DNA of 35,902 nt. Origin: a bacterium (GTDB lineage Bacteria > SZUA-79 > Acidulodesulfobacterales > Acidulodesulfobacteraceae). The notes beneath the pieces are model-generated. The model saw only the letters and a program-made list of their open reading frames with translations, did not search any database and was not told where the DNA came from. Below, in pieces: positions 1 to 28,012 of the stretch. Both the position numbers and the translations under genes were made by a program. The first letter of the stretch is position 1, and every line of letters begins with the position of its first letter. The DNA lies in NCBI GenBank assembly GCA_021798875.1, contig JAJZBN010000020.1:1-35902 (forward strand), read 5' to 3'.

Positions 1-322
<322 letters not shown>

Positions 323-442
323 CAATAAATTATTATTAAGAAATTAACTGATTTGTTTTTAATGCTTTTTTAATGCGTGCTGTTTAGTTCTCAAAGACCG
401 ATCTTCATTAGCAGGTTTGTTTAATACCTAATCTCGAAGTGT
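323..442 (-). other. rRNA operon leader with boxA-like antitermination site
   Basis: This is the about 120-nt transcribed leader between the promoter and mature 16S. On the minus strand it contains GGTCTTTGAGAACTAAACAG (about 400-381), which resembles the boxA/NusB-S10 antitermination element of rRNA leaders (consensus near TGCTCTTTAACAA). The rest is AT-rich and no clear boxC or tRNA is seen. The boxA call rests on similarity and position only. Confidence 0.6.
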
Positions 443-5617: not shown

Positions 5618-6361
5618 TTATGCCGAAGTGTATAAATGTGCATAAGGTCTTGCGCTTGAAGGCACAATTTTATAAAACGGTTTTTTATATATCTCTTCTA
5701 AAGATATATTGAAACTGTTTGAAAAATCTGTTAAATATTCCTTTAAAAATTTTGCATCTTTATCGTCTATTTCATAAACCTCGGCTTCATTGGAGAATTT
5801 TGAAAAATCTATTTTTTTTCTAATAAATATAGTGCCTCCATGCATACCGGAAGCAAAATAATCTATATCTAATTCATCGGAATCATCGTCTTCCAGTCCA
5901 AGCAAGACTATTACTCCACCGGCCATATATTCGGCAAAAAAACTTCCTACTTTTCCACCTATTATAATAACAGGCAGTTGTTCATTATAACCTTTCATAT
6001 GAATCCCCACCCTGTAACCCGCGTTGCCCCTGATATAGATTCTGCCGCCTCTCATGCCGTAACCTATTACGTCTCCCGCATCTCCGTTTATAATGATTTT
6101 ACCGGCATTCATAGTATTGCCGACATTGTCCTGAGCATTATTATTTACTATTAAAGTGGGACCGTCCATAAAGGCTCCCAAATCGTTTCCAGGTGTTCCG
6201 TTTATTTCGATAACCACGTCGTCGCCTTTTATCCCGTCGCCTATATAATACTGCCCGTTAACGTTTTCTATGAAAAATTTTTTAACACCGTTCAATATGC
6301 CTTCTCTTATAATCCCGTTAAGCTCTTTATAATGCATTCCGGCTGCATCGATAGTCATCAT
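5618..6361 (-). CDS. Glutamate synthase GXGXG-domain protein (GltB3-like)
   Basis: A 247-residue stand-alone version of the C-terminal beta-helix (GXGXG) domain of glutamate synthase large subunit. It shows repeated glycine-rich turns: GTPGNDLGAFMDGPT, NAQDNVGNTMNAG, GDAGDVIGYGMRGG, GNAGYRVGIHMKG, and MAGGVIVLLG. In the fused enzyme this domain is structural and helps form the ammonia tunnel. Archaea and some anaerobic bacteria encode it separately. It is the third gene of a three-gene set on the same strand (amidotransferase, FMN/Fe-S, GXGXG), 50 nt after the FMN subunit. Confidence 0.92.
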   Translation of the reverse strand: MMTIDAAGMHYKELNGIIREGILNGVKKFFIENVNGQYYIGDGIKGDDVVIEINGTPGNDLGAFMDGPTLIVNNNAQDNVGNTMNAGKIIINGDAGDVIGYGMRGGRIYIRGNAGYRVGIHMKGYNEQLPVIIIGGKVGSFFAEYMAGGVIVLLGLEDDDSDELDIDYFASGMHGGTIFIRKKIDFSKFSNEAEVYEIDDKDAKFLKEYLTDFSNSFNISLEEIYKKPFYKIVPSSARPYAHLYTSA

Positions 6362-6411
6362 ATGTCTTTTTATTGCTCCTTTTAATATATAATAATATTA
6401 TATTTTAATTT

Positions 6412-7932
6412 TTACAAGCCGGCATGCTTAATTCCTAACGCTTTTAATTCGGCGTCAGTTAATTCTATGCCTCTTAATCTTTCTCTTGAACCTCTTAAAC
6501 TTTCAATGGAATTAACGCCCATGGCACCCAACACTTCTTGTATCTCGTGGCTCCAAGCCGAAATAAGATTATATAATCTTTCTCCGTAAACTTCCGGATC
6601 CAGCCTGCGCACAAGTTCTGGTCTTTGAGTGGTAATACCCCAACTGCAGTTTCCTGTATTGCACTTTCCGCAAACATGACAGCCCATGACTATTAATGCC
6701 GCCGTCCCGATAGCAACTGCATCTGCGCCGAGGGCTATCGCTTTTATGGCATCTGCGCTGGATCTTATGCTTCCCGCGGCTATTATAGAAGCTTCGTTTC
6801 TTATGCCTTCTTCCCTTAATCTCTCGTCAACCTGTGCAAGTGCAAGTTCTATCGGTATTCCCACATGATCCCTGATAACGATAGGGGCTGCTCCGGTACC
6901 GCCCGAATATCCATCGATATAGACTATATCGGCGCCGGCTCTGACTATACCGCTTACTATTGCGGCTATATTATGAACCGCAGCTACTTTAACGGATACG
7001 GGTTTTTCGTAATCGGTCGCTTCTTTAATTGCATATATAAGCTGTCTTAAATCTTCAATCGAATAAATATCGTGATGGGGTGCGGGGGAAATAGCGTCCG
7101 TTCCTACGGGAATCATTCTTGTCCTGGAAATATCGATTCCTATTTTTTCTCCGGGAAGATGTCCGCCTATACCTGGCTTTGCACCCTGTCCTATCTTAAT
7201 TTCGACTGCAACGCCGCTGTTTAAATAATCTCTGTGAACGCCGAATCGTCCGGATGCAACCTGAACTATAATATTTTTACCGAAAGGCACTAAATCGTCG
7301 TGCAGTCCACCTTCGCCTGTATTCATAACTATACCGAGCGCCCTTGCCGCTAAAGCCATAGCTTTTTGGGCATTAAGAGAGATAGAACCGTACGACATAG
7401 CGCCGAAAACAAAGGGCGTCTGGAGTTCTATTTGAGGCGGCATTTTTGTTTTCAAAACAGGTTCGCCTCTTTCGTCAAAGTCAAAGTCTAATTTTGAAGG
7501 TTTCTTGCCGAGAAACGTTCTTAACTCCATAGGTTCTCTTAAAGGATCTATAGAAGGATTAGTAACCTGACAGGCATCTAAAAGTATATGGTCAAAATAT
7601 TTTTTATATTTAAAAGTAGTACCCATTCCCGAAATAACTATACCGCCTGTTTCCGACTGTCTCCAGATATTTTTTACGAGCGGTTCCTGCCAATTCGCAT
7701 TTTCTCTGATAACCGTAGGATTTTTAATTATAGAGATAGCTCCTTCCGGACAGTAAGTATAACACCTGCCGCATGCTACGCATTTAGAATGATCGGCGAT
7801 AATCTTGTCGCCGCCGAAACTATAAGTTCCCCATCCGCAATTTTGGATACATCTTTTGCATCTTACGCATTTATTATGATCTATGACCGCTAAATATTCG
7901 GATTGAATATTGGAAAAAGAAGATTTTGTCAT
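6412..7932 (-). CDS. Glutamate synthase FMN-binding subunit with N-terminal ferredoxin domain (archaeal type)
   Basis: Makes glutamate from 2-oxoglutarate and ammonia delivered by the amidotransferase. The 506-residue protein starts with two [4Fe-4S] motifs, CVRCKRCIQNC (about 21-31) and CVACGRCYTYC (about 51-61). A central FMN-binding barrel follows with GAMSYGSIS, GEGGLH, GQGAKPGIGG, VKVAAV, YIDGYSGGTGAAP and ADAVAIGTAAL. The 3Fe-4S motif CHVCGKCNTGNC lies near residue 422. This is the archaeal-type GltB2 architecture. It overlaps the amidotransferase gene by 4 nt (ATGA). No pyridine-nucleotide GltD partner is in the window, so the electron donor is unknown; ferredoxin or the adjacent Hdr-like protein are possibilities. 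Confidence 0.94.
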   Translation of the reverse strand: MTKSSFSNIQSEYLAVIDHNKCVRCKRCIQNCGWGTYSFGGDKIIADHSKCVACGRCYTYCPEGAISIIKNPTVIRENANWQEPLVKNIWRQSETGGIVISGMGTTFKYKKYFDHILLDACQVTNPSIDPLREPMELRTFLGKKPSKLDFDFDERGEPVLKTKMPPQIELQTPFVFGAMSYGSISLNAQKAMALAARALGIVMNTGEGGLHDDLVPFGKNIIVQVASGRFGVHRDYLNSGVAVEIKIGQGAKPGIGGHLPGEKIGIDISRTRMIPVGTDAISPAPHHDIYSIEDLRQLIYAIKEATDYEKPVSVKVAAVHNIAAIVSGIVRAGADIVYIDGYSGGTGAAPIVIRDHVGIPIELALAQVDERLREEGIRNEASIIAAGSIRSSADAIKAIALGADAVAIGTAALIVMGCHVCGKCNTGNCSWGITTQRPELVRRLDPEVYGERLYNLISAWSHEIQEVLGAMGVNSIESLRGSRERLRGIELTDAELKALGIKHAGL

Positions 7933-9071
7933 AAACTAAGCAGTCCTCCCTTCAAAGACGTCTTTTCTTTTATATCGTCAAACTCTACCGCTACAGGTTC
8001 TCCTGCTTTTGGAGACCACACCATGTCGGGAGACTGACAAACTGCCCGAATAGCTGCTTCTTCGGAAGCGACATAAGTAAAATCGCCGTTAGAAGCCGCT
8101 ACAAGCGGCCTGAGTTTTATTCTGTCGTTCATAGCTACCATACCGCCCGAATATCCAAAAACTATAGCAAAAGGTCCGTTTAAAAGCGCGCTTCCGTAAA
8201 CCTGCCTTAAAGCTGTAAAAAGCATTTTTTTGTCGTTTTCCATTTTATCTATTTTGTTATAAAACGGAAAAGCAAGTACCGATAGAGCCAAACGTACGGG
8301 AATCTTATGTTTTCTTATTAAAAGATCTAAAATGTAAGTTATAACTTCCGTGTCAGTTCTTAATGCCAGGTTATATTTATACATCTCTAAATATCTTTTA
8401 TTGATTCCGTAAGAAGATATTTCTCCGTTATGAACGATAGACCAATCCAAAAGGGTAAAAGGATGTGCGCCGCCCCACCAGCCTGGAGTATTTGTAGGAA
8501 ATCTGTTGTGCGCAGTCCACATATAACCTTCTATTTCTTCCAGCCTGTAAAAATCTGCTACGTCTTCGGGATAACCTACGCCTTTAAATGCCCCCATATT
8601 TTTTCCGCTTGAAAACACGTAAGCGCCGTCGTAATTTTGATTAATAAGCATAACGCTGTTTACCACGAAATCATCGTCTTCCAAATCGTGAAACAGTTTA
8701 TCCTGCCTGTCGGATTTAGGTTTTATAAAATAACGGTGAAGATACGGATGATCGTAAATTTTAGCGGTCTTAAAGGTAGGAATAGGCTCCTCTTTTTCTA
8801 TGATGAAATTATTTCTTAGATACTCTTCGACGTCTGACTTAGCAGAAAGGTTATCGTACATTATATGAAAAGCATAAAGATCTGCATAATCGGGATAATT
8901 GCCGTAAACCGCAAAACCGCCGCCTAAACCGTTTCCCCTATCATGTTCCACCGAAATAGCTTTTTTAATATCGCTTCCGTTGGTTTTAACTTTTTTGGCA
9001 TTTATAATACCGCATAAGCCGCAACCGGATATATCTCTTTCCGTATTAAATTTATTTTTTATTTTTAACAC
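7929..9071 (-). CDS. Class II glutamine amidotransferase subunit of glutamate synthase (GltB1-like)
   Basis: Releases ammonia from glutamine for the neighbouring FMN subunit. The 380-residue protein has an N-terminal-nucleophile amidotransferase fold. The nucleophile is probably Cys17 in SGCGLCGII, aligned with the usual CGIFGI after removal of a short propeptide. Further motifs are TAHNRFPTNTPGWWGGAHPF, WSIVHNGEISSYG, RTDTEVITY and VASEEAAIRAV, all matching the class II signature. The start is GTG at 9071, supported by AGAGG about 7 nt upstream. It is the first gene of the split glutamate synthase operon; the hdrBC-like gene ends 85 nt upstream in the same direction. Confidence 0.92.
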   Translation of the reverse strand: MLKIKNKFNTERDISGCGLCGIINAKKVKTNGSDIKKAISVEHDRGNGLGGGFAVYGNYPDYADLYAFHIMYDNLSAKSDVEEYLRNNFIIEKEEPIPTFKTAKIYDHPYLHRYFIKPKSDRQDKLFHDLEDDDFVVNSVMLINQNYDGAYVFSSGKNMGAFKGVGYPEDVADFYRLEEIEGYMWTAHNRFPTNTPGWWGGAHPFTLLDWSIVHNGEISSYGINKRYLEMYKYNLALRTDTEVITYILDLLIRKHKIPVRLALSVLAFPFYNKIDKMENDKKMLFTALRQVYGSALLNGPFAIVFGYSGGMVAMNDRIKLRPLVAASNGDFTYVASEEAAIRAVCQSPDMVWSPKAGEPVAVEFDDIKEKTSLKGGLLSL

Positions 9072-13504: not shown

Positions 13505-13533
13505 ACGGTGCCAGAATTCAATTCTGGCACCGT
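13505..13533. repeat. Palindromic repeat, copy 1 (REP/MITE-like)
   Basis: A 29-bp perfect inverted repeat: arms ACGGTGCCAGAATT (13505-13518) and AATTCTGGCACCGT (13520-13533) around one C. It is followed by the tail CACAAAACGGAA. The same palindrome and tail occur in inverted orientation at 15862-15949. The repeat sits 21 bp upstream of the rlmN start and could form a hairpin in RNA or cruciform DNA. Dispersed copies resemble REP elements mobilised by RAYT transposases; that assignment is inference. Confidence 0.85.
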
Positions 13534-13554: not shown

Positions 13555-14601
13555 ATGAAAAATATACTGAATTTATCAAAAAAAGAATTAGAAGAATACT
13601 GCACTGTAAACGGATTCAAAAAATACGGCACAGAACAGATTATGAGATGGATTTATCAAAACAGAATTTTTGATTTTTCGGTAATGTCCGACGTTTCCAA
13701 GGATTTAAGGGGAAAGCTCGATAAAGATTTTTACGTTAAACTTGCAGATATAATAGACGTTAAATACGAAAACGACGAGAACGGACATTCTAAAAAATAT
13801 CTCATAAAATTTGAAAACGAAGATATCGTGGAATCGGTATCTATAGCGCATAAAAACAGGAGAACTTTATGCGTTTCGTCCCAGGCGGGATGCAGGATGG
13901 GATGCGTTTATTGCGAAACCGCCGGAATGGGTTTTTCAAGAAATTTGACCTCGGGAGAAATAATTTCTCAATTATTAACAGTTGAAAACTATGAAAACGA
14001 TAAAATTACAAATATAGTTTTTATGGGCATGGGCGAACCGTTAGATAATATAACCGAAGTCGAAAAAGCTTTAGAAATACTGTCGAATGACAAGTTTATC
14101 GGAATAGCTCAAAGAAAAATAACCGTTTCAACTTGCGGATTAATAAATGTTCTGGAAGGGTTTGATATAAACGACTACAAATATAAGCTTGCAATATCCC
14201 TTAACGCCGCAGATAATGAAACCAGAAGCATGTTAATGCCCGTCAACAAAAAATTCCCTATAGAAAAAATTGCAGAGTTGGTGAATTCGAAAAAACCTTC
14301 GCTTCATAATAAAATAACCTTGGAATATGTACTTATAAAAGGTTTAAACGACCGAATCGAAGATGCGAAAAGGATTATAAAATTATTTTCCCCTTCAAAA
14401 GTAAAAATAAATTTAATTCCTTTAAATAAAGCCGAAGATTCGGTTTATCTAAAAAAATTTGAAAGACCGGACAATTTTACGATAGATAAATTTAAAACAA
14501 AATTATCGAATGCAGGTTTTACCGTAACGGTTAGATTTTCCAAAGGCGGCTCTATTAACGGAGGATGCGGACAGTTAAAGGCTCAAACTTTGAAATATTA
14601 A
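13555..14601 (+). CDS. rlmN: 23S rRNA (adenine2503-C2)-methyltransferase, dual specificity
   Basis: Radical-SAM enzyme methylating A2503 in 23S rRNA and A37 in some tRNAs. The 348-residue protein has the cluster motif CRMGCVYC (about residues 113-120), the early segment YGTEQIMRWIYQNRIFDFSVMSDVSK and NIVFMGMGEPLDN. STCGLI and INLIPLNKA follow, and a C-terminal cysteine in GGSINGGCGQL supplies the resolving/methyl-accepting residue. It is full length. AAGG sits almost against the ATG; an earlier GGAAT may be the better Shine-Dalgarno sequence. The 3' end overlaps the opposing corrinoid-activation gene by 27 nt. Confidence 0.96.
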   Translation: MKNILNLSKKELEEYCTVNGFKKYGTEQIMRWIYQNRIFDFSVMSDVSKDLRGKLDKDFYVKLADIIDVKYENDENGHSKKYLIKFENEDIVESVSIAHKNRRTLCVSSQAGCRMGCVYCETAGMGFSRNLTSGEIISQLLTVENYENDKITNIVFMGMGEPLDNITEVEKALEILSNDKFIGIAQRKITVSTCGLINVLEGFDINDYKYKLAISLNAADNETRSMLMPVNKKFPIEKIAELVNSKKPSLHNKITLEYVLIKGLNDRIEDAKRIIKLFSPSKVKINLIPLNKAEDSVYLKKFERPDNFTIDKFKTKLSNAGFTVTVRFSKGGSINGGCGQLKAQTLKY

Positions 14602-15843
14602 ATTTTTAATAAAACGTTTTTGGAAAATCCCGCTTCCCGAAAGAGGAAAATTTTTGGATTTTTTTATTATATTTTTTATGTCTTCTTCTCTTTCTAAACG
14701 GCCGGAAAGAATATATTTCAAGCATCCGTCCAATACGGAAGATTCTATTGCAATAATATTTTTTCCTTTAAAAGGAAAAATATCTATTAAATCTATTATA
14801 TTCGTTTTTATATGGCTGCCGAAAGTTCCTGAGATAAATACGTCGAAATCGTTATAGCTAAAAATTTTAAATTTTTCCAATAATATTTCAGAAGCTGATT
14901 TTACGGCCGATTTTGCAAACTGAAACTGCCTCAAATCATCTTGAAAAAATTTTACTGCGTTTTTTCCGTCAAAATAAACCATTATTTCATTTTCGCCGTT
15001 TTCTTCATTCTTTTTGACAACGTTAAAATTTTCTGACTCTATTTTTTCCGGCGGCAGTATTCTTCCGTTTTCGTCTATTATGCCTTCTTTTAACAGTTCG
15101 TAAACGAGGCTCATTATACCGCTGCCGCATATTCCTGAAGGATGAGAACCGGATACCGTCTTAATTTTAAAAATTCCGTTTTCAAGATGAACTTCTGAAA
15201 TTGCCCCGTCCGAAGAAGCAGTCGTACCAAATTTTATATTTCCGCCTTCAAACGCCGGACCTGCCGGCGCGGATGTCGTATAAATTTTATCTTTATACCC
15301 TAAAGCGATTTCTACGTTAGTGCCGAAATCTGCTATAAAAGCCGGTTTTATTCTGTTTATCATATCTAAATTATAGATGGAAGCTACTGTATCGCCGCCG
15401 ACGAATCCATCTAATACGGGAAATATAAACATTTTTTTATTTTTTAAGTTTAAACCTGGGATATATGCCGTATTTTCAGGAAAAAAAATTTCGGAAGACG
15501 GTTTATACGGAGGTTTTGATAAAGAGATTAAAGGGTAGCCGCAAAACGCCATTTCCATAACGGTGTTTCCGGCAATTACGATTTCTTTTATATTTTCATA
15601 TTCAAAACCTAAATCGGCTTTAAAAGAATCTATTAAACTATTTATAGTCGCAACGGCTCTTTCTTGAAGTTTTTCAGCCGAATTTTTATCTAATCCGTTT
15701 TGAATTCTTTTTACGGAATCTAATCCAAATTCATAAAACTGAAGATTAGTCGTACTCTTATAAGGATAAACTTTTTTTGTTTCGTCTGCTAAAACTGCGG
15801 CTACGGTCGTAGTCCCTAAATCTATGCCTAAGGAATATTGCAT
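14575..15843 (-). CDS. Corrinoid-activation ATPase (RACo/DUF4445-type) lacking a ferredoxin domain
   Basis: ASKHA-family ATPase predicted to reductively reactivate an oxidised (cob(II)) corrinoid protein. The 422-residue protein begins directly with the ATPase fold: GIDLGTTTVAAVLAD at residues 5-19. It continues with EIVIAGNTVMEMAFCG, FADFGTNVEIALG-like IADFGTNVEIA, SAPAGPAFEGGNIKFG, SGSHPSGICGSGIMSL and VFISGTFGSHI, the DUF4445 signature of RACo/RamA proteins. Characterised RACo and RamA carry an Fe-S domain as electron entry; here none is present, so an external reductant would be needed. It sits 108 nt downstream of selD across a palindromic repeat. The target corrinoid protein may be MetH. 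Confidence 0.88.
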   Translation of the reverse strand: MQYSLGIDLGTTTVAAVLADETKKVYPYKSTTNLQFYEFGLDSVKRIQNGLDKNSAEKLQERAVATINSLIDSFKADLGFEYENIKEIVIAGNTVMEMAFCGYPLISLSKPPYKPSSEIFFPENTAYIPGLNLKNKKMFIFPVLDGFVGGDTVASIYNLDMINRIKPAFIADFGTNVEIALGYKDKIYTTSAPAGPAFEGGNIKFGTTASSDGAISEVHLENGIFKIKTVSGSHPSGICGSGIMSLVYELLKEGIIDENGRILPPEKIESENFNVVKKNEENGENEIMVYFDGKNAVKFFQDDLRQFQFAKSAVKSASEILLEKFKIFSYNDFDVFISGTFGSHIKTNIIDLIDIFPFKGKNIIAIESSVLDGCLKYILSGRLEREEDIKNIIKKSKNFPLSGSGIFQKRFIKNLIFQSLSL

Positions 15844-15861: not shown

Positions 15862-15949
15862 CCGGCCTTTTCCATTTTGTGACGGTGCCAGAATTAAATT
15901 CCGGCCTTTTCCATTTTGTGACGGTGCCAGAATTAAATTCCGGCACCGT
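15862..15949. repeat. Palindromic repeat, copy 2, with 39-bp tandem duplication
   Basis: Two tandem 39-bp units (15862-15900 and 15901-15939) each contain TTCCATTTTGTG followed by ACGGTGCCAGAATT. A partial third unit ends in CCGGCACCGT. The last part, 15921-15949, is a 29-bp inverted repeat (arms 14 bp, 13 matching, centre A). The orientation is opposite to the copy at 13505. It lies between the selD stop (3 bp away) and the RACo-type gene, and may act as a hairpin 3' end for selD mRNA. A 62-codon ORF across it reads the repeat as protein (PEFNSGTVTKWKR twice) and is not a gene. Confidence 0.85.
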
Positions 15950-15951
15950 AA

Positions 15952-17007
15952 CTATATAATATATATATAAATGCCGTTATGAACGCCTTTTTCTAAGACT
16001 TTGCCTATTTTGTAAAGCGGTTCGTCTTTTTTTGCGAAAGCGTCCTCTAAAAAAGATGATTTGTCGTTAGGAACAGATAAAATAAGTCCGCCCGACGTTT
16101 CGGCGCCGAATGCCGTCCATAATAAATTTTCGTCGACTTCGTTTTCAACGTAAGTATAAGGCGCAAAATATTTCCTGTTACGCTTCGTACCGGCCGGATT
16201 TATACCTTTTTTAATTAATTCCAATACTCCTTTTATAACCGGAAGCGACCGGAGATATATTTCGCAGGATACATCGCTCGCAGTCATCATTTCGCTCAAA
16301 TGACCTATAAGCCCGAATCCCGTAACATCCGTAGCCGCATTTACAACGCCGGTCGAAACGGCAATTTCGGAAGCATATTTATTCAGTTTAGACATCGATT
16401 TCGTCGCTTCGCTTAAGGTTACTTCCGGCAAAAAATCGGTACATATTGCGCTAACCGCAAATCCGGTTCCAAGACTTTTAGTAAGATATAAAATATCTCC
16501 TGGTTTAACGCCCTGATTTGAATAAATATTATCTATTCCGCATATGCCGGTTACGCTTAACCCGTATTTTATTTCTTTGTCGTCTATGGAATGGCCGCCT
16601 AAAAGAGCAACCCCTGCTTCTTTTATCTTATCCAATCCGCCGCTTAGTATAAGGTTAAAAACCTCCTTATCGACGTCGTTTATGGGGAAGCATGCGATAT
16701 TTAACGCCGTTATAGGCTTGCCGCCCATTGCGTAAACATCTGAAAGAGCGTTAGCTGCGGCAATTTGACCGAAAGCATAAGGGTCGTCTACTACCGGAGT
16801 AAAAAAATCGACCGTTTGTATAAGACATTTATCGCCGCTTATCTTATAAACGCCGGCATCGTCTTTATACCCAAAACCCACCAAAACGTTGTCGTTCTGC
16901 GGAACCGATAATTTTTCCAATATTTTAGAAAGGTCCTCCGGACCTATCTTGCACCCTCAGCCGTGTGCGCTTGTCATACTGGTAAGCTTATATTTCTTTG
17001 AAGTCAT
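15952..17007 (-). CDS. selD: Selenide, water dikinase, itself a selenoprotein (UGA codon 17 read as selenocysteine)
   Basis: Makes selenophosphate from selenide and ATP, the selenium donor for SelA. Reading from ATG at 17007, codons run MTSKKYKLTSMTSAHG-U-GCKIGPEDLSKIL and join the open frame that starts (at a TTG) at 16920. TGA is codon 17 (16959-16957). It aligns with catalytic Cys17 of E. coli SelD, and Lys20 follows in the same U-G-C-K order. The remainder has SelD motifs QTVDFFTPVVDDPYAFGQIAA, AMGGKPITALNIA, LLGGHSIDD, ATDVTGFGLIGH and GAETSGG. With Sec the protein is 351 residues, normal length. It starts 4 nt after mlaD. A SECIS-like hairpin follows the UGA. Starting at the TTG would remove the active site. 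Confidence 0.95.
16928..16951 (-). promoter_or_regulatory. Candidate bacterial SECIS hairpin within selD
   Basis: On the minus strand, AGGTCC-GGA-GGACCT forms a perfect 6-bp stem with a GGA loop. Beyond a U-U mismatch the stem continues for three more pairs. The loop begins 17 nt after the UGA. Known bacterial SECIS rules (small apical loop with a G in its first two positions, about 16-37 nt after UGA) are met. Binding by SelB has not been tested and selB is not in the window. Confidence 0.72.
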
Positions 17008-21180: not shown

Positions 21181-22620
21181 TTAGACGGAGATTATTGCGG
21201 CAAGTATATCGTCGAAATCACTGAGAAACACGGTTCGCATGTCGAGCCTAAACTCGCCGTTTTTTATTTTTCCTATGACGGGGGTTTTGGCTTTTCTAAA
21301 TATTTCGGCTATGCCGGATGCGCCGATTTTTTTATGGATTATGGATAGCGAATACGTTTTAAGTTCGTAATCCGGAAGAGCGCCCCCGCCTACAAGGCTG
21401 AAATCGCCGGTTATTTTAAATTCAAACATTTCTTTGTCTATATTTTCGCATCTTTTAATTAAGTTAAAAAGTTTTAAAGTCTTTCTTTTTATTTCAAATT
21501 CGGTTTGAGCGATAAGAGAAAGCGTAGGAATATTTTTAACGGCTCTATCCATATCTAAATATTCAAAAAGAATAGCTTCAAGTCCTGCAAGCGTCATTTT
21601 ATCTATTCTAAAAGCTCTGTTTAAAGGATTAGCCGCTATTCTGTCCACATATTCCGCTTTTCCGGCTATTATTCCGGCCTGCGGTCCGCCAAGAAGTTTA
21701 TCGCCGCTGAAAGTAACGATATCAAGTCCGTTTTCTATAACCTCTTGAGCGGTAGGTTCATAAGGAAGTCCGAATTTTGCTATATCGACGAAACTTCCCG
21801 ATCCGAGATCCTCCATTACGGGAATGCCGTGCTTTTTAGCCATTGATGCGATATCTTTTCCCGAAGGGCTTGCAGTAAAGCCTACTATCCTGAAATTGCT
21901 TTGATGAACTTTTAGCAATAAAGCCGTATTTTCGTTTATGGCAGATTCGTAATCGCTCAGTTTGGTTTTATTGGTAGTCCCTACCTCTATCAAAACCGCT
22001 CCGGAAGCAGTCATGATATCAGGTATTCTGAACGAGCCGCCTATCTCTACCAATTCCCCTCTCGAAACAACAACCTCTTTTTTTGCTCCGGAACAAAACG
22101 TAGAAAGCGACATAAATACAGCCGCAGCATTATTATTTACTACTATAGCTTTTTCGCATTTTAAAATTTTTTTAAGAAGGTATTCTATGTGCGAATATCT
22201 TTTTCCTCTTTTTCCCTCCGAAATGTTAAATTCTAAATTAGAGTATGAAGAGGATATTTTCGAAATATTGTCTAAAGCGCTTTTAGGCAAAATAGACCGC
22301 CCTAAATTTGTGTGAATAACTACTCCCGTTCCGTTAACGACTCTCTTTAGGCTGAAAGAAAAATCGTTTAATTCTTTATGAAGTTTTTTTATAAAAAATT
22401 CTGAGTTAAATTTAGCCAAGTTTTCCGAAATATTCTGCCCCATTCCGTTTTGCATAGACTCTATAACTTTTTTCTTTTCTATTTCTATTAAATTTTCTAT
22501 TTTATCTTTTATAAATTCATAAGGAAAAGCATTATATTCGGAAGAGTCCTTAATTTTTTCCAATACCGACTGGACGCTTGGAAACCGTCTTAATATTTCG
22601 TTTTTATTTTTATTTTCCAT
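21181..22620 (-). CDS. selA: L-seryl-tRNA(Sec) selenium transferase
   Basis: PLP enzyme converting seryl-tRNA(Sec) to selenocysteinyl-tRNA(Sec) using selenophosphate. The 479-residue protein has the SelA pattern: N-terminal helical region with LRRFPSVQSVLEKIKD, VVNGTGVVIHTNLGRSILP near residue 100, NNNAAAVFM, VVSRGELVEIGGSFRIPDIM, GSGSF and ITVFSGDKLLGGPQAG-type sequence (here IVTFSGDKLLGGPQAG). The Lys of SGDK is the PLP lysine. It is full length. With selD (also a selenoprotein) in the window, active Sec synthesis is well supported. selB and tRNA-Sec are not present here. Confidence 0.96.
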   Translation of the reverse strand: MENKNKNEILRRFPSVQSVLEKIKDSSEYNAFPYEFIKDKIENLIEIEKKKVIESMQNGMGQNISENLAKFNSEFFIKKLHKELNDFSFSLKRVVNGTGVVIHTNLGRSILPKSALDNISKISSSYSNLEFNISEGKRGKRYSHIEYLLKKILKCEKAIVVNNNAAAVFMSLSTFCSGAKKEVVVSRGELVEIGGSFRIPDIMTASGAVLIEVGTTNKTKLSDYESAINENTALLLKVHQSNFRIVGFTASPSGKDIASMAKKHGIPVMEDLGSGSFVDIAKFGLPYEPTAQEVIENGLDIVTFSGDKLLGGPQAGIIAGKAEYVDRIAANPLNRAFRIDKMTLAGLEAILFEYLDMDRAVKNIPTLSLIAQTEFEIKRKTLKLFNLIKRCENIDKEMFEFKITGDFSLVGGGALPDYELKTYSLSIIHKKIGASGIAEIFRKAKTPVIGKIKNGEFRLDMRTVFLSDFDDILAAIISV

Positions 22621-25519: not shown

Positions 25520-25585
25520 GTAACAAAAATGTAATAAAATCGTAACCTTAATGTAACATTAGCGTCATAATTTTGTAACAAAACG
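25520..25585. promoter_or_regulatory. Six phased 11-bp direct repeats (Pho-box-like array)
   Basis: Read on the plus strand, units start at 25520, 25531, 25542, 25553, 25564 and 25575, exactly 11 bp apart: GTAAC, GTAAT, GTAAC, GTAAC, GTCAT, GTAAC, each followed by an A/T-rich 6-mer. PhoB-type sites are tandem 11-bp repeats of TGTCA/TGTAA plus AT-rich spacer, so a response regulator of that kind is the obvious candidate. The array spans the last codons of metH and the space before murT. A minus-strand TATAAT (25481-25476) lies downstream toward murT. Confidence 0.6.
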
Positions 25586-28012
25586 CTTAATCTTCTCTAC
25601 AGCTTCCATTGCATTCTTTGCATATATATCGGCGTTAATAGATTTAGCATAATCTTCCGTCACAACGGCTCCTCCGACCATAGAAAAAACTTTTACGCCA
25701 TGTTTCTTTAATTCTTTTATAACATGCTCCATCTCCGTTACGGTCGTGGTCATTAAAGCCGACAGGCCTACAAAATCGACCCTATTCTTAATAGCTTCTT
25801 CTACTATTTTTTCGGTTTTTACGTTTCTTCCCAAATCTATAACCTCGTAACCGTTATTCTCGAGAAGCATCGTTACTATATTTTTCCCTATATCGTGCAC
25901 GTCGCCTTCTACGGTAGCCATTAATATTTTAGGTCCGGAAGAAATTTCCGAATTTTTGGGCATTTCCTGTTTAATACGGTTAAAAGCCGTTTTCATTGCT
26001 TCGGCGCTTTCCATTACTTGAGGAAGAAAATAGATATTTTTCTCAAATAGCCTGCCGACTTCTTCAAGCGCCGGAATTAAATATTTATTTCCTATGTCTA
26101 AAGGCGATTCTCCATTAGATAATAATTTTTCGACGTATTGAGTAATGTGCTCTTTTTCTCCGCGGATTACCGATTCGCGTAAAAGTTCTCCTTCGGTTTT
26201 ATTAGTTTCGCTTACCGATTTTTTTTCGGCAGTTTTATTAGAAGAATAATTTTTAGCGGAATCGGAAAATCTGTTTATATAGTTCTTAAACAAATAGTCT
26301 TTCCCGAGAAGCGCATTCATAGCATAAAAATTAGCCGTTAAATACTCGTCCTCCGGATTTATTATAGCGGCGCTCAAACCCTCTTTAAGACATAAAGAAA
26401 GAAACGAAGAGTTTATATAAGATCTTTTGGGAAGACCGAAAGAAACGTTGCTGACGCCTAAAACCGTCGGAAGATTGAGGTTTTTTTTATTTTCAGAAAG
26501 AGCTTCTATTGTTACCAAAGATTTTTCCTGTCCTGCGCTTATAGGCAGCGTCAAAAAATCTACGATTATATCGTATGGTTTTATGCCGTAAGCTACGAGT
26601 CTTTTATATACCCCGTAAGCTATATCGATTCTTTTTTCCGCAGTTTCGGGAATACCTTCGTCGTTTAAAGCTAAAATTAAAACTCCGGCGCCGTATTTTT
26701 TTATTAAAGGCATAATTTTAGTGAGTTTTTTTTCCTCTCCGCTTATAGAATTAACAAGAGGCTTGCCCGGATAAAGCATAAGGGCTTCCTCTAAAACATC
26801 GGGATTAGAAGAGTCGATGGATACGGGAACATGCGATACTCCCGTCACTGCAATAATGCCGTTTTTCATAGATACCTTTTCGTCGGTTCCCGGAACACCG
26901 ACGTTTAAATCTAGGACGGCGGCTCCGGCTTCTACCTGTTTAACTGCAGTTTTTCTTATATAATTGGTTTTTCCGTTTTTAAGCTCTTCTATAAAGTCTT
27001 TTTTACCCGTAGGATTAATTCTTTCGCCGATAATTACCGGCGGATGTTTATAGCCTATAGGAACAAATTCCGTTCTTGAAGTTATTAGTAATCCATCCTC
27101 CCTTTTTATGCCTTTTGCCGGCAACCCGCCGCCGTTAACTATATCTATTTCTTTTCTTAAAGCTTTTATGAAATTTTCGTTGCTTCCGCAACAGGCAGAA
27201 ATAACTCTTACGCCTACAAGAGCAAGTTCCGAAACTAAAGAGGTAAAATCTTCGGGTTTTCCGGGAAAAATAGTAACACCGTCTTTTAATTTCGGAATTC
27301 CGGCGTTGGGTTTAGAAATCAACGGCACATCCGTCACGGAAGCCATTTTTTTTAAAATCTCGTAAATTCCTGACGGTCCAACCGAACAGTTAGCTCCTAT
27401 AACATCTGCCCCTAGACTATCGGCCGTTATAGCAAAAACCTCCGGAGTTGTTCCAAGTATAGTCCTGTACGAAGCGTCAAACGTCATCATTGCTATAATC
27501 GGTTTATCGGACAATTCCTTAACGGCTATAATTGCGCTTCTTATTTCCTGCAAATCTATCATAGTTTCAAGCTGAAAAATATCGGCTCCGGCATCTAAAC
27601 CTGCTTTTACTTGTTCCTTGTAAATCTCAATGCTTTCTTTAAAATTAATATCCCCGACCGGATAAATAAATTTTCCCGTAGGACCTAAGGACATAGCCGT
27701 CAGCGCGCCGTCGCCAGCAATCTGCTGAACCGCTTTAACGGCATTAAAATTTACCTCGTAAATTTTGTCCGATAAGCCGTATTCGGCCAATTTTAGCCTG
27801 TTGGCGCCGAAAGTGTTCGCCACTATTATTTCGCTGCCGGCGTTATAATAGCTTTCATGGACTTCTTTAATATATTTTATTTTTTCGGTAATATTAAAAC
27901 TTTCCGGAAGCAGTCCTTTAGGCAGAAGGTTTTTAAGCTGAAGAACCGTTCCCATAGCTCCGTCCGAAAGTATCAGCCTTTTTTTTAACTCCTCCCTAAA
28001 ATTTTTTATCAT
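25565..28012 (-). CDS. metH: Methionine synthase (B12-dependent), without reactivation domain
   Basis: Transfers a methyl group from 5-methyl-THF through cobalamin to homocysteine. The 815-residue protein contains the homocysteine-binding domain (about 1-290, ligand cysteines in GANCSVGP and SACCGS), the pterin-binding domain (about 315-570, VIIGERINPTGKK), the B12 cap helices (about 615-690) and the cobalamin-binding domain with GDVHDIGKN (His about residue 708 as lower ligand). It ends right there. The C-terminal S-adenosylmethionine reactivation domain of E. coli MetH (about 1,227 residues) is absent. AAAAGGAG about 9 nt before the ATG is a strong ribosome site. Confidence 0.96.
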   Translation of the reverse strand: MIKNFREELKKRLILSDGAMGTVLQLKNLLPKGLLPESFNITEKIKYIKEVHESYYNAGSEIIVANTFGANRLKLAEYGLSDKIYEVNFNAVKAVQQIAGDGALTAMSLGPTGKFIYPVGDINFKESIEIYKEQVKAGLDAGADIFQLETMIDLQEIRSAIIAVKELSDKPIIAMMTFDASYRTILGTTPEVFAITADSLGADVIGANCSVGPSGIYEILKKMASVTDVPLISKPNAGIPKLKDGVTIFPGKPEDFTSLVSELALVGVRVISACCGSNENFIKALRKEIDIVNGGGLPAKGIKREDGLLITSRTEFVPIGYKHPPVIIGERINPTGKKDFIEELKNGKTNYIRKTAVKQVEAGAAVLDLNVGVPGTDEKVSMKNGIIAVTGVSHVPVSIDSSNPDVLEEALMLYPGKPLVNSISGEEKKLTKIMPLIKKYGAGVLILALNDEGIPETAEKRIDIAYGVYKRLVAYGIKPYDIIVDFLTLPISAGQEKSLVTIEALSENKKNLNLPTVLGVSNVSFGLPKRSYINSSFLSLCLKEGLSAAIINPEDEYLTANFYAMNALLGKDYLFKNYINRFSDSAKNYSSNKTAEKKSVSETNKTEGELLRESVIRGEKEHITQYVEKLLSNGESPLDIGNKYLIPALEEVGRLFEKNIYFLPQVMESAEAMKTAFNRIKQEMPKNSEISSGPKILMATVEGDVHDIGKNIVTMLLENNGYEVIDLGRNVKTEKIVEEAIKNRVDFVGLSALMTTTVTEMEHVIKELKKHGVKVFSMVGGAVVTEDYAKSINADIYAKNAMEAVEKIKRFVTKL

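Follow-up and report, generated by a model that had tools for sequence, protein, structure and literature searches.

The minus-strand gene that occupies 15952-17007 of the window (the whole 35,902-nucleotide stretch of DNA analysed here) is almost certainly selD, and its product a selenoprotein in which the UGA at codon 17 would be decoded as selenocysteine (Sec). The sequence-only reading had proposed a hidden selenoprotein with UGA at the catalytic position, and this proposal is supported by the reading frame, by alignment, by 30/30 relatives, by a hairpin behind the UGA, and by the Sec machinery of the genome (Table 1).

Beginning at 17007, the minus-strand sequence is ATG ACT TCA AAG ... 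GCA CAC GGC TGA GGG TGC AAG ATA GGT CCG GAG GAC CTT. Translation from the ATG at 17007-17005 gives MTSKKYKLTSMTSAHG, followed by the TGA at 16959-16957 and then by GCKIGPEDL; the peptide and the coordinates first assigned to it (ATG 17007, TGA 16957-16959, TTG 16920) proved correct on retranslation. With TGA taken as Sec, the stretch from 17007 to 15952 is one open frame of 351 residues, which contains a single TGA, at codon 17, and ends with a TAG at 15952. The TIGR00476 selD profile matches the read-through protein over residues 7-316 with 370 bits (E 9e-111, cut-off 125), and solved SelD structures in the PDB match it as well. In the alignment to E. coli SelD (PDB 3u0o), codon 17 falls opposite Cys17 and codon 20 opposite Lys20, as had been suggested from the sequence, so that the UGCK of the window's protein pairs with C17-GCK20 in the UxxK / CxxK motif. 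The two proteins are homologous over nearly their full length and both keep the Lys, whereas E. coli has Cys at the site of the predicted Sec. A mechanical ORF call instead takes TTG 16920 as its start and, as anticipated, begins too late, since the first 29 codons are missing from it, including the catalytic residue and Lys20. No clear Shine-Dalgarno sequence was seen before ATG 17007.

Table 1. Positions of selD, its recoding features, and selA within the window.
Feature	Position	Strand	Basis
selD, selenide water dikinase with predicted Sec at codon 17	15952..17007	-	351 aa full-length; read-through translation, TIGR00476 and PDB SelD matches
TTG taken as start by mechanical ORF call	16918..16920	-	codon 30; TTG in 4/29 relatives
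Core of SECIS-like hairpin, AGGUCC-GGA-GGACCU	16931..16945	-	fold; lowest synonymous variation of selD; 25/29 relatives identical
In-frame TGA, codon 17, predicted to be decoded as Sec	16957..16959	-	translation; 30/30 relatives; alignment to Cys17 of E. coli SelD
selA, selenocysteine synthase	21181..22620	-	TIGR00474, 556.6 bits

SelD was searched for in 61 genomes, 30 of which belong to the SZUA-79 / Ca. Acidulodesulfobacterales family. Every one of the 30 family genes has exactly one internal TGA and none has a sense codon at the site; at all 30 loci the TGA is codon 17. Outside the family there are 19 strong matches, and 17 of these also contain one TGA, while the other two (L106 and L113) contain no stop and are long fused proteins of 744-748 aa, with a SelD domain homologous to that of the window and a Cys codon (TGC or TGT) in place of the TGA. 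Close SelD relatives come from metagenome bins, including the isolate SZUA-79 (QIJE01000006, L075), and this lineage probably corresponds to the Ca. Acidulodesulfobacterales that PMC6776010 describes from acid mine drainage.

The codons in front of the TGA are under purifying selection. Among 29 aligned family genes, the 48 bases upstream of the TGA occur in 26 distinct versions, and codons 1-16 have a pS of 0.62 and a pN of 0.11 (pN/pS 0.17), similar to the pN/pS of 0.19 found for codons 26-60. Because this variation falls mainly on synonymous sites, the stretch before the TGA appears to be translated in this frame. The ATG is kept in 30/30 family genes, most of which have in-frame stops at most 10 codons upstream of it, and ATG 17007 is therefore the likely start. 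These observations bear on the alternative that UGA is a true stop and that a shorter SelD, an inactive or altered N-truncated enzyme, is made from TTG 16920. Such a start is what the mechanical ORF call gives, but the codon is TTG in just 4/29 relatives, which argues both that it is not the real start and that reinitiation at this codon is not conserved. With the conserved peptide ahead of the UGA, the loss of the catalytic position and Lys20 that this start would entail, and the presence of Sec machinery in the genome, we regard a true stop as very improbable. We find it scarcely credible that the TGA arose from faulty sequencing or assembly, or that selD is a pseudogene. The genome is split into 126 contigs, of which the window is one, but the recurrence of the TGA in 30 separate family genomes already refutes an error, and purifying selection acts on the remainder of the frame, which is intact.

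Reading of the UGA as Sec would call for a SECIS element, which the bacterial model of PMC13188914 describes as a hairpin 16-37 nt downstream of the UGA; the criteria that we applied from this model include a G within the first two loop positions and an MFE below -7.5. The hairpin that follows the selD UGA has a 6-bp stem and a 3-nt GGA loop that begins 17 nt downstream of the UGA, with a folding energy of -11.4 kcal/mol, so that its spacing, loop, stem, and MFE all agree with the published description. Among synonymous recodings of the hairpin stretch, ∼10% produce a 6-bp stem that fits the model, and 1.9% equal or better the observed fold. Such a stem, taken by itself, is thus not rare by chance, and we place the weight on conserved constraint rather than on the fold. 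Of all 7-codon stretches in selD, codons 19-25 have the least synonymous diversity (0.12, compared with a gene mean of 0.46), and there is no variation at all in codons 22-24; in the 29 aligned family genes, pS is 0.06 over codons 21-25. The stem hardly varies within the family. Of the 29 relatives, 25 share the 15-base core exactly; three others have G for the first A, giving a G-U pair, and in the last one a U forms a G-U pair. Since the substituted bases still pair, the stem is kept in all 29.

The remaining components of a Sec-decoding system are found in the same genome. The selA that had been noted in the window is confirmed by its TIGR00474 match, SelB (652 aa, above its profile cut-off) lies on contig C81, and a tRNA-Sec with anticodon UCA lies at C121:141508, scoring 68.4 bits where the gathering score is 47. 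The genome therefore holds SelA, SelB, and tRNA-Sec, the set looked for in the case of a bacterial selenoprotein. The sequence-only reading had held that a genome devoid of selB or tRNA-Sec, or relatives with a sense codon, would speak against it; both genes were found, and TGA stands at the site in 30/30 family genes. The same machinery counts against the idea that UGA is generally a sense codon in this organism (code 4 or 25), with no Sec involved. The apparent read-through of one in-frame UGA would suit that idea, but about 10/35 window genes end in TGA, mostly with a short extension past it, so that UGA is an ordinary stop here and not generally a sense codon, which already refutes code 4/25. 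As the selD UGA moreover falls on a known Sec/Cys site, we give a general sense reading almost no credence.

Searches for tRNA-Sec gave no match in four relatives, namely, G002 and G014 (both nearly complete) and G006 and G015 (both 86% complete). In G014, contig C64 stops some 200 bases short of where the tRNA-Sec would be expected; in G002, contig C12 begins inside a GGDEF-type gene whose counterpart in G013 sits between tRNA-Sec and fba. Given these contig breaks at the locus, the apparent absences in G002 and G014 look like assembly gaps and not losses. We note that tRNA-Sec and fba are adjacent in the window's genome, that GGDEF-type regulatory genes lie between them in G013 (L131, G013:C20), and that the same arrangement is probable for G002 (L132, G002:C12).

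Taken together with established knowledge of the SelD family, from which both Sec insertion and catalysis by this protein would be expected, we propose the following sequence of events. Ribosomes would start at ATG 17007, decode the UGA at codon 17 as selenocysteine by means of SelB, Sec-tRNA-Sec, and the downstream hairpin acting as SECIS, and continue until the TAG at 15952. The Sec would lie in an N-terminal flexible loop at the place of the catalytic Cys17 of the E. coli enzyme, near Lys20, and would take part in the synthesis of selenophosphate from selenide and ATP. SelA would then use selenophosphate to make Sec-tRNA, so that SelD would supply its own Sec.

Sec-containing SelD, or SPS2 (TIGR00476), is already well known as a selenoprotein and occurs, for example, in Pasteurellales, Methanococcales, and many Deltaproteobacteria. 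The window's selD is an ordinary further case of it; family, Sec site, and UxxK motif are shared, SelA, SelB, and tRNA-Sec are likewise in the genome, and, as in other bacteria, the SECIS-like hairpin follows the UGA closely within the coding sequence. There is no difference of substance, the form in the window being one from a single uncultured acid-mine lineage. Sec-containing SelD ranks among the two most widespread prokaryotic selenoproteins (PMC13188914; PMC1794560), and a published survey puts the Sec form at roughly 19% of prokaryotic SelD genes. A literature search on SZUA-79 and selenocysteine found no paper.

Other selenium users were looked for in some known families and in part of the genome, by family searches and in targeted stretches. 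SelU/YbbB (tRNA selenouridine synthase) was not found by family search of the genome. No in-frame TGA is present in the single molybdopterin-domain match (FdhA), nor in the AhpC/TSA (peroxiredoxin), thioredoxin-domain, and CCG-domain matches examined. HdrA-like and MvhD-like proteins are selenoproteins in some Deltaproteobacteria (PMC1794560), whereas the genes of these kinds examined here, named from sequence by eye, are uninterrupted and without Sec. A scan for a UGA plus hairpin over part of the genome's loci returned SelD and three other frames, which we set aside as being of low plausibility, their hairpins being mostly A+T-rich. Several species with YbbB are reported to have SelD as their single selenoprotein (PMC1794560). 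Most likely, further selenoproteins exist in the lineage beyond the families examined; that SelD is its only, or nearly only, selenoprotein seems to us unlikely.

Several other features of the window were observed. Short palindromes with the core GAATTNAATTC occur at 13507-13531 and 15884-15947, and also at L082:8606-8628; their arms differ (GGTGCC/GGCACC and GGGGAC/GTCCCC) but are self-complementary. Many copies of the GGGGAC/GTCCCC kind occur in related genomes, as in REP-like elements, and a direct repeat of 39 bases that closely follows selD holds one palindrome pair. The gene after selD (14575-15843) encodes a corrinoid-reactivation domain of AcsV/RamA-like type but lacks the N-terminal part of AcsV, and a MetH-like protein of 815 aa, encoded at 25565-28012, may lack the usual C-terminal reactivation domain. 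Glutamate synthase, at 5618-9071, appears as three separate genes, judged by ORF translations only. The contig end falls inside a 16S rRNA gene (1-323, minus strand).

These findings have a bearing on how selD is annotated, as a late ORF start would suggest a truncated enzyme without its catalytic residue, while the same TGA is present in every relative examined. If SelD were indeed a near-sole selenoprotein, the Sec machinery would mainly sustain its own selenium-activating enzyme or would serve an unrecognised selenium use. The conservation of the UGA codon across the family points to a Sec-decoding trait that has been kept across an acid-mine lineage.
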